In this document: piece after piece, positions 7,413 through 41,904 of the stretch | Position numbering within the stretch: position 1 is the stretch's first letter | Layout: each line of letters begins with the position of its first letter | NCBI GenBank assembly: GCA_038049695.1 | Contig: CP142451.1 | Location: 67,585,501 to 67,649,500, forward strand | DNA from: Cinnamomum chago | Taxonomy: Eukaryota > Streptophyta > Magnoliopsida > Laurales > Lauraceae | Reading direction: 5' to 3' | DNA: 64,000 bases | Notes under the pieces: model-generated | The model's database searches: none | What the model saw: only the letters and a program-made list of their open reading frames with translations | What the model was told of the DNA's origin: nothing | Made by a program: the position numbers and the translations under genes

Positions 7413-7510
7413 CAGACCGATCGATCAGGCCGGCAAGCCGATCGATCGGATTGAAATTTGGTCTCAGTTAACTAAGACGAATCTCAAAGGTCCGATCGAT
7501 CAGAGGGTAA
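7413..7510. repeat. Cluster of GATCGATC palindromes in Tekay-like LTR no. 1
   Basis: Three sites (gaccgatcgatcagg, agccgatcgatcgga and ggtccgatcgatcag) lie within 100 bp. Comparable clusters with other cores occur in other elements of the window. Confidence 0.8.
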
Positions 7511-8307
7511 TTTCGTAATTTTTGACAACTTCGGAAAATGACTTAAAATACTTATAACTTTTAATCCGTACGTTGGATTTCTACATATTATATACCGTTG
7601 GAAAGCCCTTGAGATGTAGAATCCAATGGTTTTAATTTCATCTCGATCGGAGGTCGGGAAGTGATGTAAAAACTCAAATTATTGACCTAGCCTATATTTT
7701 ATTAGAAATAAGATCAATAACTTAGGTTTGGGCCTTAGATGTTGGAAACCAAGAACCTACTATCAGTTGACCATTAATGGGGATTAAATCGTAGCACGTG
7801 GCTTGGTGTGCTTCGATTAGGTGTCTAGGTATTCGTGTATTAAACATGGGATAACTGAATGCATATGGAACTGAATTAATGGATGCTTAACATGATTATA
7901 CACCAAGGGATTTCCTTAGAAGCATCGTTGATCCAATTCCACACGTACTCCGTTAGAACATGTAGGATACATGGATGACACCACTTGCCTAGGGTTGGCT
8001 CGTAATTCCTCCTTGACTTATTTAATTGTATCCGTTGTTATAATTCCTTGTACACTCTCTCTTGGCATAAAACACTTAACTAATTATGAAACATAATCCC
8101 TTGTAGAATTAGGACTTGGACCGGACTTAGAGTGTACCTTAGTACCCCGTGTTATGTAATTGATGAACATGACTAGCTAGACTGAAGGGATTACCATGTG
8201 ATTGGTTTTGTCTTGTATTGATTTGAATGAGATAATCCCTACGAACATGTCTTGTAAATTGAGCTAGCTAGACTTGCTTGTCTTGGTCTATTCTGGTGTC
8301 AGCGCCA

Positions 8308-8308
<1 letters not shown>

Positions 8309-8347
<39 letters not shown>
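8309..8347 (+). repeat. (ATT)13 microsatellite
   Basis: Thirteen uninterrupted ATT units within Tekay-like LTR no. 1. Confidence 0.95.
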
Positions 8348-10948: not shown

Positions 10949-12633
10949 TGTTGGAAGTAGGTGGGCCTCATGGATAGATTTTCAAAACTTTTGACCCACT
11001 TGATTCAGGGATCAAGTACCCATAAGGCCATAAACCATATCCAGGATGCAATCCCTCTATCTCATGAATCAAGTACAGTAATAAAATCTATCTAAAAGAT
11101 AGAACTTAGCAACTACATGCATCCAAAACAATCCACAATAAATAGAGAAGTAGATTATACCTTTGGAGCCCTGTAGTGCTCTAATGGAGGAGAAGACAAT
11201 TAACTTGATCAAGAACTCTTCTTGAAGCAATTAGAGATCTCCAAGACCTTGTTATCTTCCACGCTATGACCCGCTTATCCGATCTCTTTTCTCAAGAAGA
11301 TTGGTGGAAACTTCAAGATAAAACCCTACTAGAAACTCCATGGAACTAGAAGAGAACTAGAAGAGAGAAAAGAAGAGGACAAGAATTGTGCAACACTTGC
11401 ACAAAGGAGCCTTGGGCATGGGATACTATTAGTGGACGTCCAAGGGTGTGTTTGTCCTCTATTTAAAGTCCTCAAACCTCATCTTTTAACTCTCTTACTA
11501 ATTGTATTAGAAGTCTCACTTTCATACTAATTAGTAATATACTATTACCACTATTAGAAGTCACACTTCAAATAGAAATAGTAACTTTCTAATTCCTTCC
11601 TTTTTGGAGTACAAGTAGAATTAGTATCTTTCTAATATCTTGGGCTAGCGTGGGGACCACTAGGGAATCCAAAGAAAGCTGGCTCCAACTGGGACACCGC
11701 AACCCTACATCTCATGTGCAATCCGGGCCCATAGTTAATTGCAAATAACACCACTATATAAATGCAAATGCACTCCAATCTTAGAAATAAATTACAATGA
11801 AGACCCTAAACTTCCCAATTACCATAAGTAAGCCCCTCTATCAATATCCATGGATCAATTGGAATAAATCCTTCCCATCAAATCTTAGATCCACATCTTA
11901 TTATCCTTGAGCCCCAATTAATCACAGTGATCATCAGTGCCATCCAATTAACTCTTAATCGAGATGGGTGCGCACTTACTAATAACAAATCCATTAATTG
12001 GCACAAGGGGATAATGTGGATAGATACTATATTGACCATTGTATGTTCCCACAGTCCAACTACCATGTACCCAAGACACCGAGGTGTTGACCTATAGTTG
12101 GCCTCACTCATTGGTGACTCAAAACAAATGAATAGACAGAAACTTGAGTTCATCAATGTCTCATGATTTAGAGTCTATTTCCAGGGAATTATGAGAGTAG
12201 ACCTTAAAATCGAGACAGTATTGCATAAGGTGCTTCTCATGGTCCTTCAATACATCCAATGTACCAGCACTATGATCCAGAATCTTACATTCTGATGATC
12301 GAGACAAATCACACTATCTCATAGTGATCAAAGTGCTACAACCTTATCAAATGAGATGCCCATCCTCATCATTGGTTGTGAAGATATTTTTAAGTATAAG
12401 ACTTGTGACACATGTCTCCCGTATGTGGATCTCATTCATATACATATATCACATCTGCTATACTAATCGGACCGGGTTCATCTCATGAACCATCATGTCA
12501 TATTTATTGGTCATGTGCATTAAGTAATAAAACAGCAATCATCTCATGAAAGGAAAGCATAATTTTATTGATAAATAAAGAAATTAATCAATTTATTACA
12601 TCAACTGATGGATTGAGACCACACAGTCTAACA
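10949..12633 (-). repeat. Copia 3' LTR (minus strand)
   Basis: 1685 bp. On the minus strand it starts TGTTAGACTG and ends CTACTTCCAACA. A purine tract lies immediately 5' of it in element orientation. Near-identical relatives occur at 33703-34736 (partial), 34737-36413 (opposite strand) and, more diverged, 37329-39101. Confidence 0.9.
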
Positions 12634-12648
12634 ATCTCCCACTTGGGC
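12634..12648 (-). other. Polypurine tract of the antisense copia element
   Basis: The plus strand reads atctcccacttgggc, i.e. gcccaagtgggagat on the element strand, directly before the 3' LTR. This is the usual copia second-strand primer site. Confidence 0.85.
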
Positions 12649-12649
12649 T

Positions 12650-15900: not shown

Positions 15901-16009
15901 TTTTTTTTTTGCCTTTCGGCCCTTTGCCTTTCGGCTTGGACTTGGCATCCAACTTTTCTGTCACTAGGGCAGTTGGCTTCTTCTTCATAATCCCTTCAGT
16001 CACTACCAG

Positions 16010-17473: not shown

Positions 17474-18738
17474 TGTCGCGACCCCGGAACGGATCCCCGG
17501 GCCCGCGACGTTGGTTGAGTTGCACTGTCTACTGTTTTCCCACAGGTTCCCGCGGTGAGGATTCCCAAAGACACGCGGAATCTGACTCACACGTACAAGC
17601 TTTGCGGAAGCGTGTAGCAAAACATACCAAGATAAGCACCAATGAAATATTTAAGTGCCATGACAAATAATAACACGACATAGTATCAAAGAAAGAAACT
17701 AACATGGCATTCCCATTATTATTCAAGTTATGAGACTAGTCAAAAGTGAGTTAAGTTTTGTTACAATTCCATAAGAAGCCAACAGAGGCTAATACACATC
17801 TCAAAATGTAACAACAGAACCCCCAACAAAAGATGACGAGACTCAAGAACCCGCCCGACGTCTAGATGACATCGTCGGGCTGCCACTCTCTCACAGGGGT
17901 TGGCTCACAAGCCTCCTCCTAACGCTCCTCCTCAAAGGTAACGTCTCCTGCACCTGGGCACCAACAATCAAGGATCAAACACGACGGTTTGGCAGGTAAT
18001 CAATTTAGGTGCAAGCATGAAACAATAGTATTTAAGAAAACATGTGAGTAAAACCTTGATTAAAATGCTACAATAACTGAGGTATATTTTCGAGAATGCG
18101 AACAAGGCTGAGATACCAAAACAAACTAGCATGAATACATAATATATCATGAACAGTTACAATCTACAAAGAGCTCATCCTTTCTCTATCATTTATATAA
18201 TGAAAAGAGCAAGCACGCACGACAAGCACGATATACATAATATAGGCACGACACGATTTCCCATAAAGACGGGAATTCCGGCCGCGGAACCGGACACGCA
18301 CTATATGTAATAAATACACGACCAGTCTGCAGACAGTCCACATGTTTAAAGACCCCCAGACAGTGGATCAAACCGAAAGGGCAGTCTAAGCTCAGTGGTG
18401 TTTACTTAATTCATGAATGCACAAAACACTTGAAACACAATCAAAGCATGTCGAGGTAAAAAGGGGGAAATCACTTATCAATGAAAGTCCACGAGGATCC
18501 TAACCCTAGAGGGGGGGTGAATAGGGTGAGCTACAAGTATGACCAATTTCGACCAATTTTAATTTCTTAAACAAAACTAGTCACATGTGATGATTAAACA
18601 AACAAGATGCGGAAGCTAATACAAAATCAATCACCACATAGCATGCACCACAACACCAATATTTATAGTGGTTCGGCCAACGTGCCTACATCCACTACCG
18701 GCTTGTGTCTCCAACACCCCACCGGATTCCACTAATTA

Positions 18739-18945
18739 TGCTTTTTACTAGGCTAAGCAATAACCCTTACAAAGTTGTTTTTCTAGGCTAAACAACAACC
18801 TCTCAATGTGCTTTTATAGGCTTAGCAATAACCTTACAATATGCTTTTCTTAGGCTAAGCAATAACCTTACAATATGCTTTTCTTAGGCTAAGCAATAAC
18901 CTTACAAGTTGCTTTTCAAAGGCTAAGCAATAACCTTTACAAAAG
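18739..18945 (-). repeat. 34-bp minisatellite in the Sirevirus-like LTR
   Basis: Six units of the type ggctaagcaataaccttac, followed by aatatgcttttctta. The same array is at 24557-24763 in the other LTR, and a diverged four-unit version on the opposite strand is at 32655-32790. Confidence 0.85.
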
Positions 18946-19606
18946 AGGATTTCTCTAAGAAGGTGTCTTTACAAAAGATCACTCTAAGAGATTACAATTT
19001 AAGCACAATGGAATTTGCCTCTTAAATAGGCTAATAGGAAAATGAAATTCCAATTACAAACATACACTAAAATAAACTAAAGTGTGTGCACAAAGTGTAT
19101 GTATGAGTTTCTTCAATCAATTTTAACAATGAAGCTTTTAAATGAATGCATGATGCATTTTAAAATCAAGGTTTATAAAATGATGATTGAAGAGAAAACT
19201 AATCACATAAAAGATTCAAACAACTTTGAAGAATTAAGATAAACAAGTTGAGTGAAAGTTAAAGTCTAAGAACATATGTGATTAGGATAAGAGTGTGTGC
19301 AAACTAATCTAATTTACCAAGAAAGATATTGAGTTTGCAAAACAACTCTTTAAGGGCTTGAAATCATGCATAAATGAAAATACAAAGGATTTGAACATGC
19401 ATGAATTTCATTTGAATGGAAATCAAAATAACTTAGAAGATGTACCTTTTAAAAACTCATGAGATTGATTTCCAAATAGCCCTCTAGCATTTCCAACTTC
19501 TTCCCCTTTCTTTGGCTCCAAAATGCTCTCAAAGGTTCATAGTTCAAGCCTTGAAAAAGGTTGGAAATGAATGGACTTTATAGCCAAAAAGTTGCCAACG
19601 GCTAGT

Positions 19607-19750
19607 TCTCGGTCGACCGGCAAGGTGGTCTCGGTCGACCGAGAAAGCACAACGGTCATATTTCTGACCGTTGGGGCTTCAGTTCAAAAAACAGTCCATT
19701 TGCCCTGCAGTGTTCTCGGTCGACCGAGACCCAGGTCTCGGTCGACCGGC
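19607..19750. repeat. Cluster of CTCGGTCGACCGAG palindromes, 3' LTR
   Basis: Four sites around 19610, 19630, 19715 and 19737 (two are the full 14-bp palindrome), ending about 25-30 bp upstream of the TATA box in element orientation. Sireviruses are known for CG-rich palindromes at this LTR position. Confidence 0.9.
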
Positions 19751-20249
19751 GACACTGCCGGGACACCCCCAAAAATTCCAACTTTTGCATTTTGAAGATT
19801 TTCTTTGTGGAATTTTGTGGGTCACTAAACCAAGCTTAAAAACATGTTTTAAAACATTTAAAAACATGAAACACACAAAGCCTAAAATGATTCAAAGGTT
19901 TAAAACCAAAGGCAAGCTTGATTAGTAAAAACTCTTTTCAAATCAAATTGCATACAAAACTGATTCTAAAGGTGCTGAATGTATGCAAAGCTCAAACCTA
20001 AATTCACAAGAAGATTTTCCAAATCTAATGCACAAGGAATTTGGTTTTCAAAAGAGTTTTGGGTTCTAAAACCAATGCATCCAAGTTTAGAACCAAACCA
20101 TGCATAAAACACAAACTTTTCCAAAACTAAAAACTAATGCATGTATAAAACTAGATTTCAAGATATTTTAAATCAATGCAAGTGTGAGAATTCAAATGAT
20201 GCTAAAGTGCAAATGCATCCATCAAATTGCAAAAACAAAAGACCTAACA

Positions 20250-20262
20250 ATCTCCCCCTTTG
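20250..20262 (-). other. Polypurine tract adjoining the 3' LTR
   Basis: caaagggggagat on the element strand, directly before the LTR start TGTTAGG. Confidence 0.9.
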
Positions 20263-20860
20263 CAATTTGATGGCAACTTACTCATCAATGAAATTACACA
20301 CTCTGTCTTCAGCTCCCCCTCAGCTGGACAAGTCTTGAAATCTTCTTCTTGGATGCTTCTTCTCTTAGCTTGGGCTCTTGGGCTCTTTTCTTCAATCTTC
20401 TTGATGCTTGGTGCTTGATCATTCTTCAAGCTTTCTTCTCATCTTCCTCTCTTTGGCCAAGCATCTTCTTTAGCTCCAAGCTTTCTTTCTTCTATTTGCT
20501 CTCCCCCTTTGACCATGCCTCTCTCTCTTGAGAACTTGAAAGCTTTCTCCCCCTTTGATGGATAGGAGATCTTCGAGTACTTGAACTCTCGAACTCTCTC
20601 CCCCTTTGAAGAGTAGGAGATCTTTGAGTCACACTTGAACTCTCTCTCCCCCTTTGACATTAAATTGCAAAGGTACCTACACACATGAGACAAGAAGAAT
20701 ACCTTTAGTAGCACCTGTTAACAAATGAAATCGAAAATGAAATTCATAACAGGCTATCATGTATGTAAGAAGTCTCTAAGGGCTCATTAGCATTCCAAGG
20801 GTGAATTTGATCAAAACTAATTCTTCCTATGAAGGTTTACACTCCCCCTCAATCCATTCT
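20263..20860 (-). repeat. Reiterated polypurine tracts in the 3' region
   Basis: Further copies of the ctccccctttg or ctccccctca motif (plus strand) occur near 20310, 20502, 20548, 20598, 20651 and 20841, embedded in C/T-rich repeats of a gaactctctccccctttg kind. Multiple purine tracts before the 3' LTR are a reported Sirevirus trait. Confidence 0.8.
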
Positions 20861-22639
20861 CTTCTTTTGTCAAGCTTTTGACAAGATATAACTATTAGAT
20901 TCAAGAAGTAGATGGTTTAACCAAGTGAGGGTTAACTTCAAGGAAAGGATTAGATTCATTTAACTATAAAGCTCATATGATCAAATTACCAAAAGAGAGC
21001 TAGGACAAATGAGAGAAACTATCATGGATACCAATTGAAATAAACATATCAATTGAGATTAAAGGATGTGACTATAAACTCAATCACTCTAAAATGGATT
21101 TAAAAGAATAACTATTATGAGAAATCCAAATTAGATCTATCCATGATATGGGGTTTACACAAACATAGCATCAATCAATATTACTTATGAAAACCATATG
21201 CTATGTAAGATTTTGAAAATCATTTCATTCAATCAATAAATATGACTTATTAAAGTGCAAATTGAGTGAAATGAAATTCAAACATGAAGCCAACCTCTAT
21301 TAATAACCAACCAATATTATGAACACATAAACATGGTGGTCATGAGATATACCTATAAGAGCAAATGAGGTGGCAATCATGAGCATTGTGATGCTAATGG
21401 TGTGTGACATGGAACAATTATATAACTATCAAGTTCAATCCAATGCACACAAGATCTATCACATTCATAAGGAATCAAATCAATCGAAAAATTATACCAA
21501 ATGAAACCAATTGACTTTGACAACATGATAAAGGCCAAGAATGTGACAAAAATTCCATCAAGCACCATAAATGCATATTCATCACTTTTAAGGATATAAC
21601 TATTGAGCATAGTGATGAACAAGGCAAATTGCAATGCAAAAGGATATTACTTGGTAATGCATGCAATTTTCAAAGTGTCAAAATCATATGAATTCAACTA
21701 CTAAGATATCCATCAACCAACATAAATGTAAGGAATGGATTTCAAAGAGATTCATATGATCAAGAACACTACATATGAGGTTGAAACATGTACAAGGATG
21801 ACACCAAGAGAATCTACATGAATCAACATCATAACCATCCATAAAGAAATGACTATAAGGCAAAAAAGGATGGATTTGGGTTCTAGTATGGTTTCTACAA
21901 ATGTAACTAAGGTCACAACCATACATGGAACCAATTGTCATTTGCATATGCAAGGAAAGTAAACAAACAAGCAAAGATGCAAACAACAAACATTTCCATT
22001 TCTAAAGATAATGAAACCAAAAGAAAAAGGAAATGAGAATAATGGAACATGCTTAGATGAATATAACTAATGAGATTAAAAAGCATTTCCATTCAAAACA
22101 ATCTTCAAATCATTTTGAAAAACAAAATCCAACAATGAGCATAAAGGAATGATTTTGAAGATCAATTATCAACATTGTATTTGAAAAGATATAACTTCAT
22201 TAAAACACATACAAGTTGATTTTTCAAAACAATGTTCTCCATATAAAAGTATAACTTATAAATCCATGGAAAACTTGAATTGATTCAAATCATTTGTTCA
22301 AATAATCTTACTATGACATATACACAAATGATTCAACAATTGATCATGAAGAGTCTAGCTATGAAAGCTTTTGAAATCACAATCAATTGATCATGTAAAG
22401 AAATGCAATGCAAGACATATGTGTGCAAAAGACAAATCAAACATGATGAAATTATAATCAAATGATTTTGAAAACCATGACATGTAACTTAGAATGGTGC
22501 ATGAAACCAAAATCAAATGATCATAAAGAAGCAATGCATTTTAAGAAATCTAACTAAAAGAAACAAAATGCAAATGCAATCATGACCAACAAAGTGATTT
22601 AACTAATAAAGAGTAGGATGGTCAATGAGGTTCAAGACC
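20861..22639 (-). other. Non-coding internal region of the gag-only element
   Basis: AT-rich, with no long open frame on either strand and no recognisable polymerase or integrase remnants. Many short similar phrases (such as aaatgattttgaaaa and catgaaatt) give a loose repetitive texture. In an autonomous relative this is where pol would be. Confidence 0.6.
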
Positions 22640-24199
22640 CTAAGGTTTGTCTAGGTAAATAACTTTAGGAATCCACCTAAGGTCTTGGGAGGGTTGAACT
22701 TTGAGATCTATCTTGGAATTCTCACCAACTAAAGGAGATTTAACTTGATAAATTTTCAATTTGAACTTATCACCATGATATTTAGATTTTACTAAATTTG
22801 GCTTAAAATGGTGATTAGTCTTTTGATGTTGGTGAGTTTGTTTCTTTGGGGATTGTTTCTCTTTTCTTTTCTTCTTACTTTCTCCCTTTACTTGACTTTT
22901 GAATTTTAGATTTAACTTAGCAACTTTCTTCAAAAGTTCTTTCATGGGTTCATATAAGGGAGATAGATTGAGAAGCTTTTTGTTCTTAGATTCTTTCAAG
23001 CTTGGTTTAACTTGTTTAAGCCTTTTAGAATCTATCTTGGGAGACTCCATTTTAAAGGATTTAACTTGTTTAGTCTTTTTGGAGTTTTCCTTGATTTTTA
23101 GTGTCTTACCCTTCAAGTTTGATTTTCCATTTTTGAGTTCAAAGATGGGTTTAGACACATGGCTTCTTTTCCTTAGTTTGCACTCAAACCTAAAATGTCC
23201 TTCAATGCCACAAAAATTACATTTGGTTTTGGGCAAAGGAGAAAGAGTGCTAGAGAATGAGGACTCACCTTTCACAAAAGTGTTGGTGAATTTAGGGTCA
23301 TATGTCATATTCCTATTAAAACCAAGACCCGTCCTATCTCCATGAGATTTACCCAATTTGAATAATTTTTCAAGTTTCTCTTCACTTTGGGTAAACTTGC
23401 ACTCATACTTTTGTTTATTGTTTTCAAGTTGAGTGACTTTGGTTAAAAGGATTGAATTTTCATTTTTAACTTTTGAAAGTTCATATTCAATTTCCTTATA
23501 TTTGCTTAGCTCTTCATTGGCAAGTTTTAATTCATGTTTAAGTTCATCAATAACATTAGATCCAAGTTCTTTTGTTTTTAACTTACTTTTAATCAACTTG
23601 GATTCTAAGTTGTCAATGTCTACATCTTGTCTTTTAATTGTATCTCTTAGGTTTAAATTTTCATTTTTAAGCTCATCACAATTTATCTTAATCTCATTTA
23701 ATTCATTTTGAGCATTAGATAAATTTTCCTTAGAGATATTCAATTTTGATTCAAGATTGTTAGAGTCTTTATCTTGCCTTTTTATTTGATCTCTTAGTTT
23801 TAGATTTTCCTTATTGACATTTTCATAACCCATCTTTAATTCTTTTAGTTCATCTTGAATGTTGGATAGGTTATTTAAAGAGATCATGAACTTAGAGTCT
23901 AGACATTTTATAACTTCTTCTTTCTCTCTAAGTTCATCTTTTGAAGAGGCTAGCTCTTTGTTTAGCTTATTAGATTCTTCTTTTAAACTTCTATTTCTTT
24001 TATCAAGCTTTGAAGATAATGTATATAATTCATTATAGGCTTGTTGAAGATCATCTTCATCATACTCATTTTCTTCCTCTTTTGAGTCAAATTGATATTC
24101 ATTTAAGTGAGGGTTTGAATCTTCAATAGAAGGAAGAATGAGGGATCTAGAAGAATCTACAAAGTCTAGCATAGTGGAGTCCATTCTAATGATTTTCAA
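22640..24199 (-). CDS. Gag-type protein with long coiled coil and CCHC knuckle
   Basis: 519 codons, uninterrupted. Residues 1-45 hold an acidic leader (E-E-E-N-E-Y-D-E-D-D). Residues about 48-275 are a long, Lys/Glu/Leu/Asn-rich coiled coil with internal repeats (N-L-N-L-R-D-T-I-K-R-Q-D and a near copy ~50 residues earlier; N-L-E-S-K-L twice). A CCHC zinc knuckle C-N-F-C-G-I-E-G-H-F-R-F-E-C is near residue 328 (C-X2-C-X4-H-X4-C). The remaining 180 residues are extremely Lys-rich, ending in L-R-W-I-P-K. This resembles the C-terminal half of copia/Sirevirus Gag, where such coiled coils precede the knuckle; the UBN2 N-terminal domain is not visible. The start chosen is the first ATG; a second ATG lies six codons in. 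Likely role: RNA binding and particle assembly. It is the element's only gene and is read away from the 5' LTR at 24300. Confidence 0.75.
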   Translation of the reverse strand: MKIIRMDSTMLDFVDSSRSLILPSIEDSNPHLNEYQFDSKEEENEYDEDDLQQAYNELYTLSSKLDKRNRSLKEESNKLNKELASSKDELREKEEVIKCLDSKFMISLNNLSNIQDELKELKMGYENVNKENLKLRDQIKRQDKDSNNLESKLNISKENLSNAQNELNEIKINCDELKNENLNLRDTIKRQDVDIDNLESKLIKSKLKTKELGSNVIDELKHELKLANEELSKYKEIEYELSKVKNENSILLTKVTQLENNKQKYECKFTQSEEKLEKLFKLGKSHGDRTGLGFNRNMTYDPKFTNTFVKGESSFSSTLSPLPKTKCNFCGIEGHFRFECKLRKRSHVSKPIFELKNGKSNLKGKTLKIKENSKKTKQVKSFKMESPKIDSKRLKQVKPSLKESKNKKLLNLSPLYEPMKELLKKVAKLNLKFKSQVKGESKKKRKEKQSPKKQTHQHQKTNHHFKPNLVKSKYHGDKFKLKIYQVKSPLVGENSKIDLKVQPSQDLRWIPKVIYLDKP

Positions 24200-24284
24200 A
24201 TAAACACAACTCTAGGGTTTTAACTCTAGGTTTTTACACCTAATCAAGAGTTCCAAACACTTGATCCTAAGGGATAGAGCACTT
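24200..24284 (-). other. Short leader between primer site and gag
   Basis: Only about 85 bp separate the gag start from the primer-binding site, a short leader for this class. Confidence 0.6.
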
Positions 24285-24297
24285 GGCTCTGATACCA
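24285..24297 (-). other. Primer-binding site (initiator Met tRNA)
   Basis: ggctctgatacca on the plus strand is TGGTATCAGAGCC on the element strand, the standard plant copia primer site, two bases inside the 5' LTR edge. Confidence 0.95.
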
Positions 24298-25394
24298 ATT
24301 GAAAGTCCACGAGGATCCTAACCCTAGAGGGGGGGTGAATAGGGTGAGCTACAAGTATGACCAATTTCGACCAATTTTAATTTCTTAAACAAAACTAGTC
24401 ACATGTGATGATTAAACAAACAAGATGCGGAAGCTAATACAAAATCAATCACCACATAGCATGCACCACAACACCAATATTTATAGTGGTTCGGCCAACG
24501 TGCCTACATCCACTACCGGCTTGTGTCTCCAACACCCCACCGGATTCCACTAATTATGCTTTTTACTAGGCTAAGCAATAACCCTTACAAAGTTGTTTTT
24601 CTAGGCTAAACAACAACCTCTCAATGTGCTTTTATAGGCTTAGCAATAACCTTACAATATGCTTTTCTTAGGCTAAGCAATAACCTTACAATATGCTTTT
24701 CTTAGGCTAAGCAATAACCTTACAAGTTGCTTTTCAAAGGCTAAGCAATAACCTTTACAAAAGAGGATTTCTCTAAGAAGGTGTCTTTACAAAAGATCAC
24801 TCTAAGAGATTACAATTTAAGCACAATGGAATTTGCCTCTTAAATAGGCTAATAGGAAAATGAAATTCCAATTACAAACATACACTAAAATAAACTAAAG
24901 TGTGTGCACAAAGTGTATGTATGAGTTTCTTCAATCAATTTTAACAATGAAGCTTTTAAATGAATGCATGATGCATTTTAAAATCAAGGTTTATAAAATG
25001 ATGATTGAAGAGAAAACTAATCACATAAAAGATTCAAACAACTTTGAAGAATTAAGATAAACAAGTTGAGTGAAAGTTAAAGTCTAAGAACATATGTGAT
25101 TAGGATAAGAGTGTGTGCAAACTAATCTAATTTACCAAGAAAGATATTGAGTTTGCAAAACAACTCTTTAAGGGCTTGAAATCATGCATAAATGAAAATA
25201 CAAAGGATTTGAACATGCATGAATTTCATTTGAATGGAAATCAAAATAACTTAGAAGATGTACCTTTTAAAAACTCATGAGATTGATTTCCAAATAGCCC
25301 TCTAGCATTTCCAACTTCTTCCCCTTTCTTTGGCTCCAAAATGCTCTCAAAGGTTCATAGTTCAAGCCTTGAAAAAGGTTGGAAATGAATGGAC

Positions 25395-25400
25395 TTTATA
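25395..25400 (-). promoter_or_regulatory. TATA box of the 5' LTR
   Basis: tttata on plus, within GGCTATAAAGTCC on the element strand, about 25-30 bp downstream of the last palindrome. Well placed as the core promoter. Confidence 0.65.
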
Positions 25401-25424
25401 GCCAAAAAGTTGCCAACGGCTAGT

Positions 25425-25568
25425 TCTCGGTCGACCGGCAAGGTGGTCTCGGTCGACCGAGAAAGCACAACGGTCATATTTCTGACCGTTGGGGCTTCAG
25501 TTCAAAAAACAGTCCATTTGCCCTGCAGTGTTCTCGGTCGACCGAGACCCAGGTCTCGGTCGACCGGC
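25425..25568. repeat. Cluster of CTCGGTCGACCGAG palindromes, 5' LTR
   Basis: Same four sites as in the other LTR, immediately upstream of the TATA box. Confidence 0.9.
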
Positions 25569-26446
25569 GACACTGCCGGGACACCCCCAAAAATTCCAAC
25601 TTTTGCATTTTGAAGATTTTCTTTGTGGAATTTTGTGGGTCACTAAACCAAGCTTAAAAACATGTTTTAAAACATTTAAAAACATGAAACACACAAAGCC
25701 TAAAATGATTCAAAGGTTTAAAACCAAAGGCAAGCTTGATTAGTAAAAACTCTTTTCAAATCAAATTGCATACAAAACTGATTCTAAAGGTGCTGAATGT
25801 ATGCAAAGCTCAAACCTAAATTCACAAGAAGATTTTCCAAATCTAATGCACAAGGAATTTGGTTTTCAAAAGAGTTTTGGGTTCTAAAACCAATGCATCC
25901 AAGTTTAGAACCAAACCATGCATAAAACACAAACTTTTCCAAAACTAAAAACTAATGCATGTATAAAACTAGATTTCAAGATATTTTAAATCAATGCAAG
26001 TGTGAGAATTCAAATGATGCTAAAGTGCAAATGCATCCATCAAATTGCAAAAACAAAAGACCTAACAATCAAAACACGACGAACACGACTAGCAAGAGGC
26101 ATAATATTTATGCATAACACGCTTAGAAAGTGATCCCCTTTTTCTTGAAACAAGACTTCAAAACAAGCTTATACTTGAAATCTAAAACGAGTACACGATG
26201 GTACTTATCATACTCAAAACGGAATTCAAACATGAAATCTGACAAGCATGTGTTAAGGCTACTAATTGACCCTTGTGTAATTGGGATTCCAAATGTCAGA
26301 ATATACAAGAATTGGCGTTCCCGAAGTTGGGTTGCATTTCAAAATCCCATTTACACAATGTCAAGTCAAAACCGTTAACATAGTCTAGTTTTCCAACCCT
26401 CGAGAAATTACAGAAATGAAATAATTCTTCTTCCTGAATCTGGCAG

Positions 26447-26677
26447 GTTCGCTCGAGCGAACTTTATAAACTGATGACACTTCGCTCGAGCGAGACACTT
26501 CGCTCGAGCGGATATAAGGTGCGCTCGAACGGACAACTCACTGTCTTGTTCCAGATAATACAGAGGGCAGTTCGCTCGAGCGGACCATAGGGTCGCTCGA
26601 GCGGACAGCTCTCTGTCTGCGCTCGGACCAAACAGAGGCTTGGTCGCTCGAGCGGACCCAAGGGTCGCTCGAGCAAA
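26447..26677. repeat. Cluster of GCTCGAGC palindromes in Tekay-like LTR no. 2
   Basis: Seven perfect GCTCGAGC sites and one imperfect (gctcgaac) in 231 bp, usually extended to ttcgctcgagcgga and spaced 20-60 bp, with ctgtctg/cagacag-like words between them. Confidence 0.9.
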
Positions 26678-28612: not shown

Positions 28613-28648
28613 CTCGGTCGACCAAACTCAAGATGTCGGTCGACCGAC
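28613..28648. repeat. GGTCGACC palindromes in the Sirevirus-like solo LTR
   Basis: ctcggtcgaccaa and gtcggtcgaccgac, followed further on by decayed copies (ggctgacc, agctgacc) to about 28740. Confidence 0.8.
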
Positions 28649-28767
28649 AGCTGACCGAACCCACTTCAGTTCGCATTCCAGAATGGTCAATACTAACCGT
28701 TTTATGACCGTTTGGAGTTCGGCTGACCAATAGCTGACCACAATAGAGCCGTTGCACATTTTTTTCT

Positions 28768-29220: not shown

Positions 29221-29250
29221 TTGACGATCACTTTTCTCTTCTTCGTCGAA
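29221..29250 (+). other. Conserved stem-loop block in Tekay-like LTR no. 3
   Basis: ttgacgatc to ttcgtcgaa, complementary-strand version of the block at 27486. Confidence 0.65.
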
Positions 29251-30134: not shown

Positions 30135-30400
30135 GACAGTTCGCTGGAGCGAAGTGTCCAGAAAAGGGTTCGGAGCATTCTAGTAGGTTGGTCGCTCGAG
30201 CAGACCCCTTGGTCGCTCGAGCGAACATCCCAGAACTTGTTCCAGAGCGTCGTTAGTTCGAGCGCACTAAAACTTCGCTCGAGCCAATGAGTTCGCTCGA
30301 GTGACCTCAACTGCGCTCGAGCGAACCCACCTAGACAACCATCCCAGAAAGCTCCTAGCACGAGCGAACTCTCCGGTTCGCTCGAGCGATGAGCTTTGTC
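30135..30400. repeat. Cluster of GCTCGAGC palindromes in Tekay-like LTR no. 3
   Basis: Five perfect GCTCGAGC sites (two near 30193-30222, then near 30277, 30315 and 30380) plus several imperfect ones, followed about 30 bp later by a TATTTAAA stretch near 30435. Confidence 0.85.
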
Positions 30401-33006: not shown

Positions 33007-33021
33007 CCCCCCCCCCCCCCC
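33007..33021 (+). repeat. 15-base C run near the LTR end
   Basis: C15 where the young copies have a 7-base G run on the opposite strand (18512 area); homopolymer growth. Confidence 0.85.
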
Positions 33022-33052
33022 TCTAGGGTTCGGATCCCGGACTTTCAGGAAA

Positions 33053-33687
33053 TTCATCATGCCTTGCCCTTTCACGAGAAACCAAGGAAATCATGATGCC
33101 CTTTACAAGTTGCCCAAAATAAACCATCAACCAAAAAAGGAAAGTAAAAGACTCGTGGGCCATATGGAGAGGACATTATCACCTGCAAGTTAGTATCTCA
33201 TACAATAAAGCATCTCACAAAACCAGGTTACCAAACCACAATGGAAAAACAAGATGCCAAAGGTTGTCACTTCTTTAAAACATGCCCTTCGCAAAGGGGG
33301 TCCGGGGGTGTCCCCCGACGAGGATCGAGCAACGCCTTGGGACCAAAAAATTCGAATCAAAGAACAGAGTGATTCTGTCTGCAGTCGGCTAGCCGACCCG
33401 ACCAAGTTGGTTAGCCGACCTGACAAACCCAAAAATTTGGGTTTTTGTCAAATCATAACCAACTGATCCCAAACTCTTTCTAATGATTCCAAATACCACC
33501 TAATGGTTTCCTACCATCTTTCCATCATGATTAAACCTTTTTGTGACATTCCAAACATGGATTTACTACAAAAAGTAAGCAAACTCAGTCATAACTGATC
33601 CTTACATAGCCCTACGTCTATCCTCTTCGCATCTCATGCAAAGATTAGATCTAGATCGTTGATCTAACTTGATTAGAGATGAGGTAT
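33053..33687 (-). other. Copia 5' leader, part nearest the primer site
   Basis: Non-coding. It matches the plus-strand leader at about 36430-37060 and contains a small cluster of GGCTAGCC-type palindromes at 33384-33421 where the plus-strand copy has GGTCGACC-type ones. Confidence 0.75.
33384..33421. repeat. GTCGGCTAGCCGAC palindromes in the antisense copia leader
   Basis: gtcggctagccgac, then ttggttagccgacc 10 bp later. Confidence 0.8.
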
Positions 33688-33700
33688 GGCTCTGATACCA
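33688..33700 (-). other. Primer-binding site of the antisense copia element
   Basis: ggctctgatacca on plus, TGGTATCAGAGCC on the element strand, two bases from the 5' LTR. Confidence 0.95.
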
Positions 33701-33702
33701 AT

Positions 33703-34736
33703 TGTTGGAAGTATGTGGGCGTTGTGGATAGATTTTCAAAACTTTTGACCCACTTGACTCGGGGATCAAGTACCCATAAGGCCATAAACCATATCCAGGA
33801 TGCAATCCCTCTATCTCATGAATCAAGTACAACAATAAAATCTATCTAAAAGATAGAACTTGGCAACTACATGCATCCAAAACAATCCACAATAAATAGA
33901 GAAGTAGACTATACCTTTGGAGCCCTGTAGTGCTCTAATGGAGGAGAAGACAACTAACTTGATCAAGAACTCTTCTTGAAGCAATCAGAGATCTCCAATA
34001 CCTTGTTGTCTTCCACGCTATGACCCGCTTATCCGATCTCTTTTCTCAAGAAGATTGGTGGAAATTTCAAGAGAAAACCCTACTAGAAACTCCATGGAAC
34101 TAGAAGAGAACTAGAAGAGAGAAGAGATGAGGAGAAGAATTGTGCAACACTTGCACAAAGGAGCCTTGGGCGTGGGATACTATTAGTGGACGTCCAAGGG
34201 TGTGTTTGTCCTTTATTTAAAGTCCTCAAGCCTCCTCTTGTAACTCTCTTACTAATTGTATTAGAAGTCTCACTTCCATACTAATTAGTAACATACTATT
34301 ACCACTATAAGAAGTCACACTTCAAATAGAAATAGTAACTTTCTAATTCCTTCCTTTTTGGAGTTCATGTAGAATTAGTATCTGTCTAATATCTTGGGCC
34401 AGCGTGGGGATCACTAGGGATTCCAAAGAAAGCTGGCTCCAACTGGGACACTGCGACCCCACATCTCATGTGCAATCCGAGCCCATAGTTAATTGCAAAT
34501 AACGTCACTATATAAATGCAAATGCACTCCAATCTTAGGAATAAATTACAATGAAGACCCTAAACTTCCCAATTACCATAAGTAGGCCCCTCTATCAATA
34601 TCCATGGATCAATTGGAATAAATTTGTCCCATCAAATCTTAGATCCACATCTTATTATCTTTGAGCCCCAATTAATCACAGTGATCATCAGTTCCATCCA
34701 ATTAACTCTTAATCGAGATGGGTGCGCACTTACTAA
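33703..34736 (-). repeat. Copia 5' LTR, incomplete
   Basis: Matches 10949-11983 closely (a few percent different). The plus-strand LTR of a related element begins at its right edge, and the remaining ~650 bp do not reappear in the window. Confidence 0.85.
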
Positions 34737-36413
34737 TGTTAGATTGTATGGTCTCAATCCATTAGTTGATGTAATAAATTGATTAATTTCTTTATTTATC
34801 AATAAAATCATGCTTTCCTTTCATGAGATGAATGGTGTTTTATTACTTAATGCACATAACCAATACATATGACATAATGGTTCATGAGATGAACCGAGTC
34901 GCATTAGTATATTAGATGTGATATATGTATATGGATGAGATCCATATATGGGAGACATGTGTCACAAATCTTATACTTAAAAATATCTTCACAACCAGTG
35001 ATGAGACTGGGCATCTCATTTAATAAGGTTGCAGCACTTTGATCACTATGAGATAGTGTGATTTGTCTCGATCATCAGAATGAAAGATTCTGGATCATAA
35101 TGCTGGTACATTGGATGTATTGAAGGACCATGAGAAGCACCTTACGAATACTGTCTCGATTTTAAGGACTGCTCTCATAATTCCCTAGCAATAAGCTCTC
35201 AATCCTGAGACATTGATGAACTTAAGTTTTTATCTATTCATTTGCTTTGACTTACCAATGAGTGAGGCCAACTGTAGGTCAACACCTCGGTGTCTTGGGT
35301 ACGTGGTAGTAGGACTGTGTGAACATCTAATGATCAAGATGGAATCTATCTACATTATCCCCTTGTGCCAGTTAATGGATTTGTCAATAGTAAGTGCGCA
35401 CCCATCTCGATTAAGAGTTAATTGGATGGTACTGATGATCACTGTGATTAATTGAGGCTCAAGGATAATAAGATGTGGATCTAAGATTGGATGAGACAGA
35501 TTTATTCCAATTGATCCATGGATATTGATAGAGGGGCCTACTTGTGGTAATTGGGAAGTTTAAGGTCTTCATTGTAATTTATTCCTAAGACTGGAGTACA
35601 ATTGCATTTATATAGTGGTGTTATTTGCAATTAACTGTGGGCCCGGATTGCACATGAGATGTGGGGTCGCGTGTCCCAGTTGGAGCCAACTTTCTAAGGA
35701 ATCCCTAGTGGTCCCCATGCTAGCCCAAGATATTAGAAATTTACTAATATTACTTGAACTCTAAAAGGAATGAATTAGAAAGTTACTATTTCTATTTGAA
35801 GTGAGACTTCTATTAGTGGTAATAGTAAGTTACTAATTAGTGTGGAAGTGAGACTTCTATAGCAATTAGTAAGAGAGAAAGAAAATGAGACTTGAAAGTT
35901 ATAAAAGGGGAAGCACCCTTGGACGTCCACTAATAGTAGTACACGCCCAGCAAATTGTGCAAGAGTTGCACATCTCTCTTTCTTCTCTCCCTTTCTCTTG
36001 TAGTTCTCTTCTAGTTCCTTTAGAGTTTCTGATAGGATTTTCTCTTGGAGGTCCCACCAATCTTCTAGAGAAAAGAGATTTAATACGGGTCATAGCATGG
36101 AAGATCAAAAGGTCTTGGAGATTCTTATTAGATACGTGAAAGATTTTCATCATCAAAGAAAGACACAACTTCTCCATTAGAGCACAACCGAGCTCCTAAG
36201 GTATAATCTACTTCCTTGCATGTTGTAGATTTTTATAGATGCTTGTTGGCTACTGTTCTATCTTCTTGATAGGTTTATTTACTGATCATGATGGCTGAGA
36301 TGGATGACATGGATCCTGAATTGGGTTTTATAGCCTTCTGGATAGTTGATCCCTGAGTCAAGTGGGTCAAAAAGTTTTGAAAACCTATCCACGAGGCCCA
36401 CCTATTTTCAACA
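34737..36413 (+). repeat. Copia 5' LTR, sense strand
   Basis: 1677 bp, TGTTAGATTG to TATTTTCAACA. Its second half (about 35390-36413) is an inverted copy of 33703-34736. Confidence 0.9.
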
Positions 36414-36415
36414 AT

Positions 36416-36427
36416 TGGTATCAGAGT
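36416..36427 (+). other. Primer-binding site of the sense copia element
   Basis: tggtatcagagt, two bases after the LTR end; initiator-Met type. Confidence 0.9.
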
Positions 36428-36686
36428 CATACCTCATCTCTGATCATGTTAGATCAGTAAACTTGTTCTAATCTTTGCATGAGATGCGAAGAGGATAGAG
36501 CAAGGGCGATGTACGGATCAATTTTTGAGGGATTTGCTTTGTTTATCAGTGAATCCATGTTCGGATAGTCACAAAGTGGTTTAATAATGTTGGATGGATG
36601 ATAGGAAGCCATAGGAACACTTTGAAAGTGATTTGGTGAAGTTTGGACACGAGCTGCAGAAACCCAAGTTGCAGGTTTCCGTCAGT

Positions 36687-36764
36687 TTGGTTGACCAAGA
36701 CTCGTGCTCAGTCGACCGAGCACATGCTGGTTGGTCGACCGAGCCCTCTGTTCGGTCGACCGAG
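36687..36764. repeat. GGTCGACC palindromes in the sense copia leader
   Basis: ttggttgaccaa, ctcagtcgaccgag, ttggtcgaccga and tcggtcgaccga within 78 bp. Confidence 0.85.
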
Positions 36765-37328
36765 GACCTTGCTTTAGGAATGCAGAATTTGGATTTTTCA
36801 GTTTCAGGTCTTCTTTGATGTCTTATTTTTCCAGCATTGTTTGGCAGCCTATTTTTGTGATTTGTATGGTTGTATGAGATACTAACATGCAGGTGATCTT
36901 GGCCTCTCCATATGGCCCACAAGTTCTTTACTTTCTTTATATGGTTGATGGTTATTTTGGGCAACTTGTAAAGGGCATCATGGTTTCCTTGGTTTCCCGT
37001 GAAAGGGCAAGGCATGGTGAATTTCCCTACAGCCCCTTTATTTCCATGTTTAAATTATCATGTAAGTCTCATAATTGAGGCATAGGCATTTATGTAATTT
37101 TGCTAAATTTGTAAATTCTGGCGATGTCCGAGACGAAGAAGGAAAGTGAAGTTGGACTCCTTATCAAAAAGCTTGAAGATTACCAAAAGCATTTTGGATA
37201 TGCCGAAAGAGTTTGAGGAATCCCAAAGTTTTGGAAAGTCTAGAAGTCCAAGAAGTCTATTCCGCCTAGGCCATGTGGAGGAGAGGACTAGTTTCTAATT
37301 TTAGCACTTTCTATTTATGGATGAATAC

Positions 37329-39101
37329 TGTTGGAAGTAGGTAGGCCTTTCAAATAGGTTTCAAAAACTTTTGACCCACTTAATACAGGGATCATCTATC
37401 TAGAAGGCAACAAAACCCAATCCAGGATGCAATCCCTCAAACTCATAAATCATGTACAGCAATATAACCTATCTAGAAGATAGAAAACAGCACCTAAACA
37501 TGCTACCACGAAATCTACAACATACAAGGAAGTAGATTATACCTTTAGACCTTAGTAGTGCTCTAATAGAGAAGTTGTGACTTTCTTTGATGATGAAACA
37601 CTTTCACTAATCAAATCAGAATCTCCAACACCTTATGATCTTCCACGCTATGCCCGTATTAGATCTCTTTTCTCAAGAAGATTGGTGGAAACTTCAAGGG
37701 AAAAACAAACTAGTAACTCCAAGGAACAAGAGGAGAAAGAGAAGAGAACTAGAAGAGGAAGAGAAGTTGTGCAACACTTGCACAAAGGGGCTGGGCGTGA
37801 TCTCTTTGTTATGGACGTCCAAGAGGGGTTAATTCCCCTTTATATAGCCCTCCATTCCTCCTCTCTTTCTATTTGAAATAAAAGTTTAACTCCCATTACA
37901 ACATAGTAACTTTCTCCCTTGCTAGTTGCCATAGAAGTCTCACTTCCACAACAATTAGTAGCTTTCTCCTTTCTAATTAAAATAGAAGTCCTACTTCCAT
38001 TAATAATTAGTAACTTACTATTACCACTATTAGAAGTCTCACTTCAAATAGAAATAGTAACCTTCCAATTCCTTCCTATTAGAGTTCAAGTAGAATTAGT
38101 ATCTTTCTAATAACTTGGGCTAGCGTGGAGACCACTAGGGATTCCTTAGAAAGTTAGCTCCAACTAGGACACGCGGCCCCACATCTCATGTGTAATCCGA
38201 GCCCACAGTTAATTGCAAATAACTCCACTATATAAATGCAATTGCACTCCAATCTTAGGAATATATTAAAATGAAGACCCTAAACTTCCCAATTACCACA
38301 AGTAGGCCCCTCCATCTATATCCATGGATCAATTGGACCTGTCCATCAAATTAGATCCATATCTTATTATCCTTGAGCCCCAATTAATTATAGTGATCAT
38401 TTGGTACCGATCCAATTAACTCTTAATTGGAATGGGTGCGCACTTACCAATGATAAATTCATTAATTGGCACAAAGGGATATTAAAGATAGATCCCATCT
38501 TAACCATTAAATGTTTCCACAGCTCTACTACCACGTACCCAAATCACCGAGGTGTTGACCTACAATTGGCCTCACTCATTGGTGACTCAAAGCAGATGAA
38601 ATAGATAGAAACTTGAGTCCATTAATGTCTCAGAATTATGAGCCTATTGCTAGGGAATTATAAGAGCAGACCTTAAAGTAAAGACAGTGTATATAAGGTG
38701 CATCTCATGGTCCTTCAATACATCCAATGTACCAACACCATGATCCAGAATCATACATTCTGATGATCGAGACAAATCACACTATCTCATAGTGATCAAA
38801 GTGTTGTAACCTTGTCAGATGAGATGCCCAATCTCATCACTGGTTGTGAAGATATTTAAGTATAAGATTTGCAATACATATCTCCTGTATGTGGATCCCA
38901 TCCATGCACATGTATTACATCTAGTATACTTGTGGACTCCGGTTCATCTCATGAACCATCATGTCATTCGTATTGGTTATGTGCAAGTATATAATTAAAC
39001 ACTATTCATCTCATGAAAGGAAAGCATGATTGTATTGATAAATAAAGAAATTAATTAATTTATTACATCATATACTTGATATTGAGACCATAAAACTAAC
39101 A
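37329..39101 (-). mobile_element. Copia solo LTR
   Basis: 1773 bp, exact duplication aatac (37324-37328 and 39102-39106). Begins tgttggaagtagg and ends aaactaaca on plus, so it is in minus orientation. Same family as 10949-12633 but clearly more diverged. No internal sequence. Confidence 0.9.
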
Positions 39102-40019
39102 AATACTTGTTTTAGAAAGTTTCCAAATCTGATCCAAAAATAGCAATTTCCAAAATTGGTCAAATCAAATTAATTTTTGGAAAGAGTTCTAATTAGAGTT
39201 GGTGGGCCCATGAGATGGATCCATTGGTAACACTAATTTAAGAAACTGGATTTTCCATAAAAGAACTTGACTTGGAACCAATCATTGGTCAAATCATGAG
39301 ATGATTTGATGTCTATATTTGTGGGCGCATATACCTATAAGGTGTCACGCCCCCGAACCAGAACCTCGGGGGCGGGAAATGGGATTTAGCATAATATATT
39401 TTTCTCCCAAGATCCGCGTGTGTGAAGACAACACATTCTGAATATTTTGCGGAAGCATTTGTGGCGTTGCGACCCGAAGTCCGTGGCCATCGGATTCCGC
39501 GTCGCACTCGACCTCTAGCATATAGCTATTATATCAAGAATCATATCAGACTGGAGTAAACCATCACAATAAATTACAGAGCTGACAGTAACAGGATATT
39601 ACATTCCCATCTATGTTCAAGTTACAATTATCAATGTACATTAATTAAGAATCCCAAGAAAAAGGCTAATAAAAGCCATACAACAAAAGCTATAATCACT
39701 ACCCCAAATATGACGTAGCTCTGATGTCAAGCTCAGTGTCTACATGACATAGCCGACAAAACAACCTGCAAAACATGGCTCCACAGCCAACAAAGGCACT
39801 CATCTCGGGACGAAGAAATCTGAACCTGAGTACCAAAAGTAATGGGTCAGACACGACGGTCTGGCAGGTGGATGAAAAGATAACAAATATACGGAAGAAT
39901 AAAACATAAGATAAATCATGCTATTCGATCAAATGCTGCATATAATTAAACGGGTGCAAAGTCGGGAATCTCGGGAAAAAAAAAACCTGTATTCATTTCA
40001 AGCATGGATAAAACATGAA

Positions 40020-40560
40020 TATCTAATAAAGCATGTGTTCGTTTACATCATCTATAATCATAGATATTTGACAATCGGGTGTTAGTCTAAAACACGTATA
40101 AATATAGTGGTATGGCAAAACCACGTTCATTTGAAACTTAAGTAAAAACATAAGTATACAACAAACCAGGTGTTCATGTAAACAGGTGTAACCAAAGAAA
40201 TCTGACAAAACTAGTGTTCATTTAAACATATTTCAGCGCATGGATTTTTAACAAACCGGGTATCGTTTAAAACAGGTATAGACGTAGGGATCTGGCAAAC
40301 AAGTGTCATTTGAAACATATTTCAAAGCATGGATATTTAACAAATCGGGTAATCATTTAAAAACAGGTATAAACATAGATATCTGATAAACCAAATGTCC
40401 TTTAAAGCAAGCTCGGGTATTTAACAATTCGGGTATTCCTTTAAAACATGTGTAATCATATAAATCTAGCAAAATCATTGATCGTTTGAAACATATGTAA
40501 AAGCATGGGTATTTAACGAATCGGGTAATCCTTTAAAACATGTGCGGGTACAAAGAACAG
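40020..40560 (-). repeat. Diverged tandem repeats in Tekay-like LTR no. 4
   Basis: The phrase tatttaacaaatcgggt, followed by atcatttaaaacag and then aaacatag.tatctggcaaa, recurs about six times in varied form, with steps of roughly 60-130 bp. Confidence 0.6.
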
Positions 40561-41837
40561 AAGACCATACAATAATAACTGAATTTACATTGGAGAATAT
40601 TAACACTTGTTTAAATAACAACTTTCATAAAGGAAACGAATCATTTATCGGAAAGCAAGTAAGCAATATAAAACATGTCGGGTATCCAAGGAATCGGGAA
40701 CTGGCAAGATGGCAATCACAAGAAGCTAAGTCCTCTATCACCGAAGTGACAAGAGTATAACGGGACGTTGGTCTCAGTCACACAAGGTGAGGAGACTCAA
40801 CGTAAATCATATATACAATATAAATATACAGGAACGGGACCACGGTAGCGAACCGGGTATCGGGACGGGACCACGGTAATAACCGGGTATCGGGATCCAA
40901 ACTGCAGCTTGCGGGACGGGAGAGGGATTTCCAAGTCGGTGGATCAAACCGACAAGGTATCCAAGCTTAGTGATGCCGACTCATAGGTCAAAACCAATCG
41001 AGACAAATGCAAGTAAATCAAGTACAGTAAATAAACGGGTAAAACGGGGGTGCTCAAGGGCACACTGTCACTTCACATCGGGCAATACATTTCGGGATAA
41101 TTAACTATTACTAGTGTAACTTCAATGCTTTCGGGAAACAAGTCATGTGATGCAAATCTCGGGAAATGAGGAAATATAATGCACTATACCATTTCGGGAA
41201 GAATATTGATTGCAAGATCTATTTAAGTGAATAGGGGTCTCGTATGTCGATTATAATAATTACTTGGCACTCCTTGAGTTTGAAGACATTCCGGGCTCCT
41301 TATGCACTTTTACTATTTTCCAAACTTAAAATGAGCTTATGGGTAGTACTAGATGTTACAATAGAAAAGAATCAAGATTATAGACGGTCCATCCTAGGCA
41401 TGACATTAATCCGGAAACATCGAGCAACCTATTCAGTCACCGAAAGGAATAGAATTCGCGATAACCAAGGGAAAGACTTGTGTTTAGATATAAAGAAGAT
41501 ATCGCGTCGTTCCATCCCGTTCAAGATTGAAATGGATTGAACTTCGATGCCACCGAACCAACCGTGAGGCGTGTCGGCTCAAGACATTCTCACACATGGT
41601 CTAAACAGTCCAAAGAGGGTAGCCGGGGTCCCACCTAAAACCAAGAATTAGTGCCTAGATCATCACCATTCTTTTCATTTAGTTCCCTAGTCTTAGAGAC
41701 CTTAGATTAGGGTATAATTGGTCTTAACACTAAGGTATATACCCCTAGGACTCATAGAAAGCCCAAAGGTTTCCAAAAAAAACAAATATCAAATTTCACT
41801 GGACTCAAACCGAAATTTCTGTACCAGAAATGCACAG

Positions 41838-41904
41838 GGTCCGATCAATCGGCCCAAAAAGCCTTACAGTTAAAGACAGGCCGATAGGTCCGATCGATCG
41901 GACC
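41838..41904. repeat. CCGATCGATCGG palindromes in Tekay-like LTR no. 4
   Basis: ggtccgatcaatcgg, then tccgatcgatcgga; the same core as in Tekay-like LTR no. 1. Confidence 0.8.

Follow-up and report, generated by a model that had tools for sequence, protein, structure and literature searches.

The window, a 64,000-bp stretch of Cinnamomum chago contig CP142451.1, contains LTR retrotransposons of several families whose LTRs or untranslated leaders carry clusters of short CG-containing palindromes (Table 1). Sireviruses are recognized by multiple polypurine tracts in front of the 3′ LTR and by an AT/TG junction (PMC2829016), and the element at 18482-26070 has seven AGGGGGAG tracts at 20252-20842 and the junction AGGGGGAGAT/TG. 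Upstream of TATAAAG, each of its two LTRs carries four copies of CGGTCGACCG, a palindrome with the CGG-CCG signature of the RM boxes; none is listed in the short internal region, and the definition of RM boxes asks for at least eight copies per element.

Table 1. Palindrome clusters and the elements that carry them (positions within the window)
Feature	Position	Strand	Description
Cluster, Tekay-like LTR C	7413..7510	+	three perfect GATCGATC sites at 7419-7501; sites 1 and 2 spaced 21 bp
Sirevirus element	18482..26070	-	two 1,771-bp LTRs, 100% identical (18482-20252, 24300-26070; self-BLAST); short internal region
Cluster, Sirevirus LTR	19607..19750	-	four CGGTCGACCG sites as two pairs
Polypurine tracts next to 3′ LTR	20252..20849	-	seven AGGGGGAG copies; Sirevirus hallmark
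Matching cluster, other Sirevirus LTR	25425..25568	-	four CGGTCGACCG sites
Cluster, LTR B (LTR start 27916)	26447..26677	-	seven perfect GCTCGAGC sites (26447-26674)
Sirevirus-like LTR fragment	28613..28649	+	two GGTCGACC sites (28616-28649), 22 bp apart
Cluster, Tekay-like LTR A (LTR start 28819)	30135..30400	+	five perfect GCTCGAGC sites (30194-30389)
Copia leader A	33384..33421	-	GTCGGCTAGCCGAC and GGTTAGCC; 3′ of PBS-like sequence at 33701
Copia leader B	36687..36764	+	GGTCGACC, two perfect (36733-36763) and two decayed; 3′ of PBS-like sequence at 36415
Tekay-like solo LTR D	39343..43300	-	3,958 bp, flanked on each side by CCTTA; homology to A except in the palindrome zone
GATCGATC site(s), solo LTR D	41838..41904	-	AGGTCCGATCGATCGGACCT and one imperfect site

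The LTRs A (28819), B (27916), D (43300) and E (44922) share an LTR-start sequence; LTR C, of which L134 is a related copy, had no match in the comparison that joined these four. For the A/D family, an internal piece from one genome copy (L126), flanked by L105 and L106, two LTRs that group as a pair in each of the trees described below, has four ORFs with gag, protease, RT, RNase H and integrase in the Ty3 order (Pfam, above or near cut-offs), so that the Ty3/gypsy domain order is seen in this one copy. No Pfam chromodomain was found in the frame tested, and the piece ends where the chromodomain would begin. "Tekay" is therefore used here as the label given by a previous sequence-only reading of the window, together with an integrase end that we take to resemble Tekay. 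A second internal piece (L125, between L072 and L073, which are unpaired in the downstream tree) has one ORF of at least 120 aa and was left out. The leaders, labelled copia in the sequence-only reading, are marked by the PBS-like TTGGTATCAGAGC, presumably the complement of initiator tRNA-Met, at 33701 (minus strand) and by a variant of it at 36415 (plus strand).

Perfect CG palindromes of at least 8 bp are present at all positions where the sequence-only reading had located clusters, but two of the clusters are thinner than it claimed: 41838-41904 holds one perfect 20-bp palindrome and one imperfect, and 33384-33421 one perfect 14-bp palindrome together with GGTTAGCC. The enrichment that it suggested testing is borne out by comparison with 30 dinucleotide shuffles of the window. 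Same-core CG-palindrome pairs within 150 bp number 42, compared to a shuffle mean of 0.07 and a maximum of 1, and CG-containing 8-bp palindromes 75, compared to a mean of 40 and a maximum of 52. These shuffles and the genome-scale core counts below rule out chance from base composition, and a microsatellite origin is ruled out by the variable linkers that separate the cores. In all nine clusters, the observed/expected ratio of CpG is 1.06-1.67, versus 0.08-0.76 in the flanking 1 kb.

Plain motif matching also revealed TATA-like boxes in sense orientation behind most LTR clusters, with distances counted from where the last palindrome begins. The Sirevirus LTRs have TATAAAG at 37 bp, LTR A has TATTTAA at 55 bp, and TATATA lies at 95 bp in LTR C and at 164 bp in LTR D. 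In the Sirevirus-like fragment, the TATA-like match TATATAAA follows the palindromes at 28767, likewise in sense. The proposed succession of cluster and TATA-like box thus holds for these LTRs but not for LTR B, where the scan found no such match after the cluster.

We searched the 1.06-Gb host genome with an anchor just 3′ of the palindrome zone of the Tekay-like LTRs, which gave 10,656 matches with at most two mismatches, compared to none for the reversed control. Forty of about 100 anchor places listed, all on C1, were combined with A and D of the window to a set of 42 LTRs. The first 20 were picked before any zone was inspected, and the second 20 only partly blind, as 12 of them were chosen for anchor variants with which a larger number of core types had come up among the first 20; frequencies of core types are therefore biased. 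One of five dyad types, named only after inspection, is found at the same place in all 42 LTRs, none being without a motif, and in 38 of them a single type is represented by two or more sites. In this biased selection, the commonest type per LTR is GCTCGAGC in 16, GATCGATC in 14, GGYTARCC in seven, GGTCGACC in three and GGCGTCnnGACGCC in two LTRs; L065, L069 and L083 carry both GCTCGAGC and GATCGATC.

The PBS pattern of the copia leaders has 1,537 genome matches (at most two mismatches). At least one perfect GGTCGACC is found in the leader zone of 22 of the first 30 places (L035-L064), which include tandem near-copies (L052-L056 and L059-L061), with up to four sites about 273, 293, 317 and 338 nt after the PBS pattern. 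The leaders L037 and L041 carry repeats like TTTACCGGCGGCC in the zone instead, and for L042, L043, L046, L048, L049 and L063 no CG palindrome is listed there. The claim that unrelated families, i.e., Sirevirus LTRs, Tekay-like LTRs and copia leaders, have the same architecture thus stands, far above chance.

Several of the cores are themselves shared: GGTCGACC is common to Sirevirus LTRs, Tekay-like LTRs and the copia leader, and GGCTAGCC to Tekay-like LTRs and the copia leader. Genome-wide, we count 97,078 sites of GGTCGACC, 52,107 of GCTCGAGC, 31,134 of GATCGATC and 25,814 of GGCTAGCC, versus 7,954 of a single composition-matched control palindrome, GTGCGCAC. Relative to the dinucleotide expectation of the window, this corresponds to ratios of 16.3, 11.0, 2.4 and 4.1, respectively, and 3.0 for the control, so that GATCGATC shows no excess by count alone.

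Comparison of the linkers between cores, with cores masked, single-letter shuffles as reference and one sequence per group, showed no likeness beyond shuffles among Sirevirus, Tekay-GGTC and leader (p 0.84, 0.64 and 0.74). Values of p ≤0.01 were reached in four of 36 comparisons, none of them among these three groups: Tekay-GGTC with L129 and with Tekay-GATC, and L133 with L129 and with Tekay-GGCT. The masked linkers thus do not support the idea that the GGTCGACC clusters in Sirevirus, Tekay-like LTR and leader all go back to one cassette, and sharing of cores without sharing of linkers favours host factors. Shared descent may still contribute to the shared cores, as indicated by the four linker matches and by a cassette in L133: Sirevirus LTR positions 19708-19758 are 92% identical to L133 over 51 bp, on the strand opposite to the orientation used in the linker comparison, and the rest has no match. 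A sequence used to place the L133 element (L137) had no BLAST match among the compared sequences and a weak LTR-start-like match.

Sites within clusters are spaced in a regular manner. Among 136 gaps between adjacent sites of the same type in the 42 LTRs, 58 are 19-24 bp long, compared to one at 13-18 bp, none at 25-30 bp and eight at 12 bp or less, and every one of the five types has gaps of 19-24 bp (31 of 64, 7 of 27, 11 of 31, 7 of 11 and 2 of 3). For the first listed C1 sites, the next site lies within 150 bp in 33 of 74 GCTCGAGC, 64 of 99 GGTCGACC, 9 of 49 GATCGATC and 13 of 49 GGCTAGCC gaps, with 15, 32, 5 and 5 of these, respectively, at 19-24 bp, versus none of 49 gaps within 150 bp for the first listed sites of the control GTGCGCAC. 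The modal spacing of the four cores on C1 is thus that of the 42 LTRs. Sirevirus pairs are 19-22 bp and leader pairs 20-24 bp apart, in a pair list that was limited beforehand to 17-26 bp and is therefore no test of spacing; the site positions of Sirevirus and leader agree. Longer gaps on C1, from non-independent copies, have a period that fits 10.25-10.5 bp in the case of GCTCGAGC and GGCTAGCC and 11 bp in that of GGTCGACC, and helical phasing of these gaps is suggestive only. As the copies are related, the evidence for spacing is the agreement across cores and lineages rather than the raw count.

Neighbouring palindromes and their outer arms could also pair with each other, forming hairpins in RNA or single strands that feed small RNAs or act in packaging or dimerization of the leader. 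The outer flanks are indeed more complementary than permuted ones (mean 3.74 versus 3.04, p 0.0024) in 43 representatives, retained from 129 pairs, 108 of them distinct, after merging pairs more than 60% alike; nine of the 43 reach a score of at least 6, versus 0.9% expected from random letters. In maize, palindrome regions of Sirevirus LTRs attract small RNAs according to Bousios 2016 as cited in the consulted parts of two reports (PMC5311732, PMC10760457). However, arms are found in a minority of pairs, the linker sequence varies while the spacing holds at 19-24 bp, and clusters in LTRs lie before the TATA-like box, so that transcripts would lack them at the 5′ end if this box is used. We therefore consider hairpins an unlikely explanation.

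The sequence-only reading had further claimed that different cores occupy the same place in related elements. This is confirmed for LTRs A and D, which are 73% identical before and 75% identical after an unalignable palindrome zone, and for the two copia leaders, with 82% and 85% identity around zones that again cannot be aligned. On a tree of the downstream LTR part (654 columns, 42 LTRs), the core type requires 15 changes, with a minimum of four; e.g., L121 (GGYTARCC) is placed next to L123 (GATCGATC) with support 98/95. In contrast, only seven changes (minimum four) are required on the tree of 300 bp of the upstream part of the same 42 LTRs, which was flagged for long branches meeting. There, GGYTARCC, GGTCGACC and GGCGTC each form one group. 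Cores thus largely track the adjoining sequence, and the upstream tree weakens the idea that cores alone switch while the backbone stays fixed. The phylogenies rather suggest that the upstream LTR part and the core travel as a unit, joined to a common downstream part, and that most of the apparent core switching represents recombination, i.e., exchange of whole upstream LTR parts. Some replacement of cores remains, since one upstream clade (support 100/99) joins GGTCGACC and two GATCGATC copies. Cores that follow the family tree had been named in advance as evidence against switching, and on this point the sequence-only reading is partly contradicted by its own standard.

Divergence outside CpG was compared between cores, linkers and other positions in five sets, with sites defined by column majority, which leans to low core divergence. 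In the leader set (41 rows), cores diverge by 7.1%, linkers by 20.4% and other positions by 8.6%; cores diverge less than linkers (p 0.0005) and not less than the remaining leader positions (p 0.94). Of the 57 leader rows, 16 were excluded here as other subfamilies or tandem near-copies; L023 and L042 are one and the same place, and for L008, L024 and L033 no match to the PBS was seen. The corresponding values for core, linker and other positions are 3.4%, 8.9% and 12.9% for GCTC (10 rows), 0%, 8.0% and 6.2% for GATC (14 rows), and 8.8%, 19.5% and 16.8% for GGYT (6 rows). The order of core and linker is reversed in the smallest set, Tekay-like GGTC (9.1%, 4.6% and 3.1%; 3 rows), leaving cores less divergent than linkers in four of the five sets. 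Chimeras as well as L068, L122 and L124 were omitted from the GCTC set, and L066 from the GGYT set.

These data bear on two further explanations. If the clusters were a neutral by-product, slippage and recombination would amplify a chance palindrome that spreads by hitchhiking with active copies, and repeated units at recurring distances, chimeras, cassette sharing and the reversed GGTC set are what one would expect. The lower divergence of cores in the other four sets, as well as the symmetry, CG content and pair spacing common to five different dyads, argue against it and make this origin improbable. Alternatively, the dense symmetric CpGs could set the methylation or chromatin state or draw a CpG reader. 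The CpG content of the nine clusters is compatible with such modules, and CpGs of the GCTC type decay less in cores (4 of 73 cells) than elsewhere (49 of 206), but no such drop is seen for GATC (5.9 versus 5.1%) or the leader (17.2 versus 13.9%). Moreover, the common core GGCTAGCC lacks a central CpG, and CpG density alone accounts for neither palindromy nor spacing, so that we judge a methylation module to be improbable as well. Insertion of elements into palindromes was rejected as a cause, as the consulted part of PMC6911290 gives a slight preference only and none for Tekay (p 0.61).

In our preferred reading, the clusters serve LTR retrotransposons as operator-like regulatory modules, in which each palindrome would be recognized by a dimeric DNA-binding protein and paired sites, about two helical turns apart, would place dimers on one face of the DNA where they could cooperate. 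The dyads, the multiplicity of sites with the same core, the two-turn pairing and the constraint on cores fit cooperative binding of dimers. An enhancer function is suggested by where the modules lie, ahead of a TATA-like box or within the leader: those in LTRs may act as promoter-proximal enhancers, and those in the untranslated copia leader as a downstream enhancer. The small number of cores common to unrelated families would be explained if the proteins are host factors. A new core would be gained mainly by recombining the upstream part of the LTR, probably through template switching, and occasionally by swapping a cassette some 50 bp long. We give this explanation as a whole, paired operator-like sites for dimeric and probably host DNA-binding proteins, a probability of roughly 0.5 on the basis of sequence comparison. 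The sequence-only reading had already proposed a rapidly turning-over module for a dimeric host factor or for CG methylation or chromatin state; the dyad pairing at 19-24 bp suits the dimeric factor, but the turnover is mostly exchange of upstream parts. We know of no plant factor that binds all these cores.

A wider version of the operator reading, which we offer tentatively, is that a host "lock set" of a few dimeric proteins is common to Ty3 and Ty1 elements of one genome. Each lineage would carry paired palindromic operators for one or the other of these proteins, and swapping of operator modules within and between lineages would reflect an arms race over promoter access.

Recognition by proteins of the elements themselves is known from VANDAL elements, whose VANC anti-silencing proteins act on motif arrays of their own family. 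Similar to the clusters described here, VANC targets are short motifs arrayed in non-coding DNA, family-specific and with fast turnover (PMC5735166). In contrast, the VANDAL elements have their own binding protein, and their motif, YAGTATTAY, is arrayed in one orientation, with palindromes unmentioned in the consulted part of that report (PMC5735166). Identical cores here serve different lineages, and the four ORFs scanned, all from the one Tekay-like internal piece, show only gag-pol domains (Pfam); we consider element-encoded recognition very unlikely.

Closest to our clusters are the RM boxes of Sirevirus LTRs (Bousios 2010), described in the consulted part of PMC2829016 as palindromes with element-specific cores that are specific to Sireviruses and lacking in classic retrotransposons. 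Like the clusters in this genome, they are CG-rich, upstream of the TATA box and within CpG islands. Table 3 of that paper lists CGGTCGACCG in Vitis, also the palindrome of the Sirevirus in our window, CCGGCTWRCCGG in Citrus and an ATCGAT-centred palindrome in Tnd-1, which are close to three types in this genome. Thus, Sirevirus palindromes with element-specific cores were known already. Unlike RM boxes, the clusters here are not confined to Sireviruses: Tekay-like LTRs (Ty3 by the genes of one copy) and a copia leader carry them too, a family has several cores, some cores are shared across lineages, and the pairs have a common spacing. What is new are these Tekay-like and leader clusters, the set of shared cores and the spacing of pairs. 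Among the titles and abstract beginnings listed in searches of the open-licence literature, none reported clusters of this kind in LTRs of Ty3 elements or in leaders of copia elements.

Clustered binding sites are found in leader enhancers of Drosophila LTR elements (the copia leader and the Su(Hw) array of gypsy), which resemble the leader clusters in this respect and differ in motifs and host. An activator in the copia 5′UTR is also mentioned in the consulted part of PMC2829016. Maize Sireviruses (Bousios 2016) likewise have a fast-evolving palindrome zone in the regulatory region of the LTR, and a maize Copia palindrome is also present in structured regions of Helitrons (PMC10760457); that work differs in reading the zone as RNA structure, and pair spacing and core exchange are unmentioned in the consulted parts (PMC5311732, PMC10760457). 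How retrotransposons recruit the plant transcription machinery, and why the DNA concerned changes so quickly, is poorly known beyond a few model elements. Compared to these known systems, a feature once described as Sirevirus-specific is now wider, and a palindrome grammar with locked spacing, common to Ty3 and Ty1 families, offers paired 10-mers as defined probes for a protein, with thousands of natural variants available for testing it.

Judging by its LTR pair, which is 100% identical, the Sirevirus at 18482-26070 of the window is a recent insertion. Its internal sequence is only ~4 kb long and contains a single long ORF, for which a Pfam search at E 0.01 gave no hits. The palindrome TGGACGTCCA occurs repeatedly among the copia LTR copies of the window. 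The site at 35920 lies ~20 bp past the start of TATAAAAG, close to a candidate transcription start. At 3689-3992, a 152-bp unit is present twice in tandem (copies 88% identical).

Coordinates of features in the window
Feature	Position	Strand
Single long ORF of the Sirevirus	22643-24211	minus
TGGACGTCCA palindrome site	35920-35929	
TGGACGTCCA palindrome site	11433-11442	
TGGACGTCCA palindrome site	34187-34196	
TGGACGTCCA palindrome site	37812-37821	

Elsewhere in the host genome, three Tekay-like LTR copies from C1 (L065, L069 and L083) each carry a GCTCGAGC array followed by GATCGATC sites within one LTR, and could represent intermediates of module exchange. Matches to the Tekay-like LTR anchor recur on the same strand at even ~6.03 kb steps at C1:36918444-36984811, as do matches to the copia-leader PBS pattern at ~7.44 kb steps at C1:48880176-48909958; both series resemble LTR-retrotransposon units arrayed in tandem, head to tail. 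Series of a similar kind are found at C1:51850033 (9.70 kb, PBS-pattern matches) and C5:53220701 (7.24 kb).
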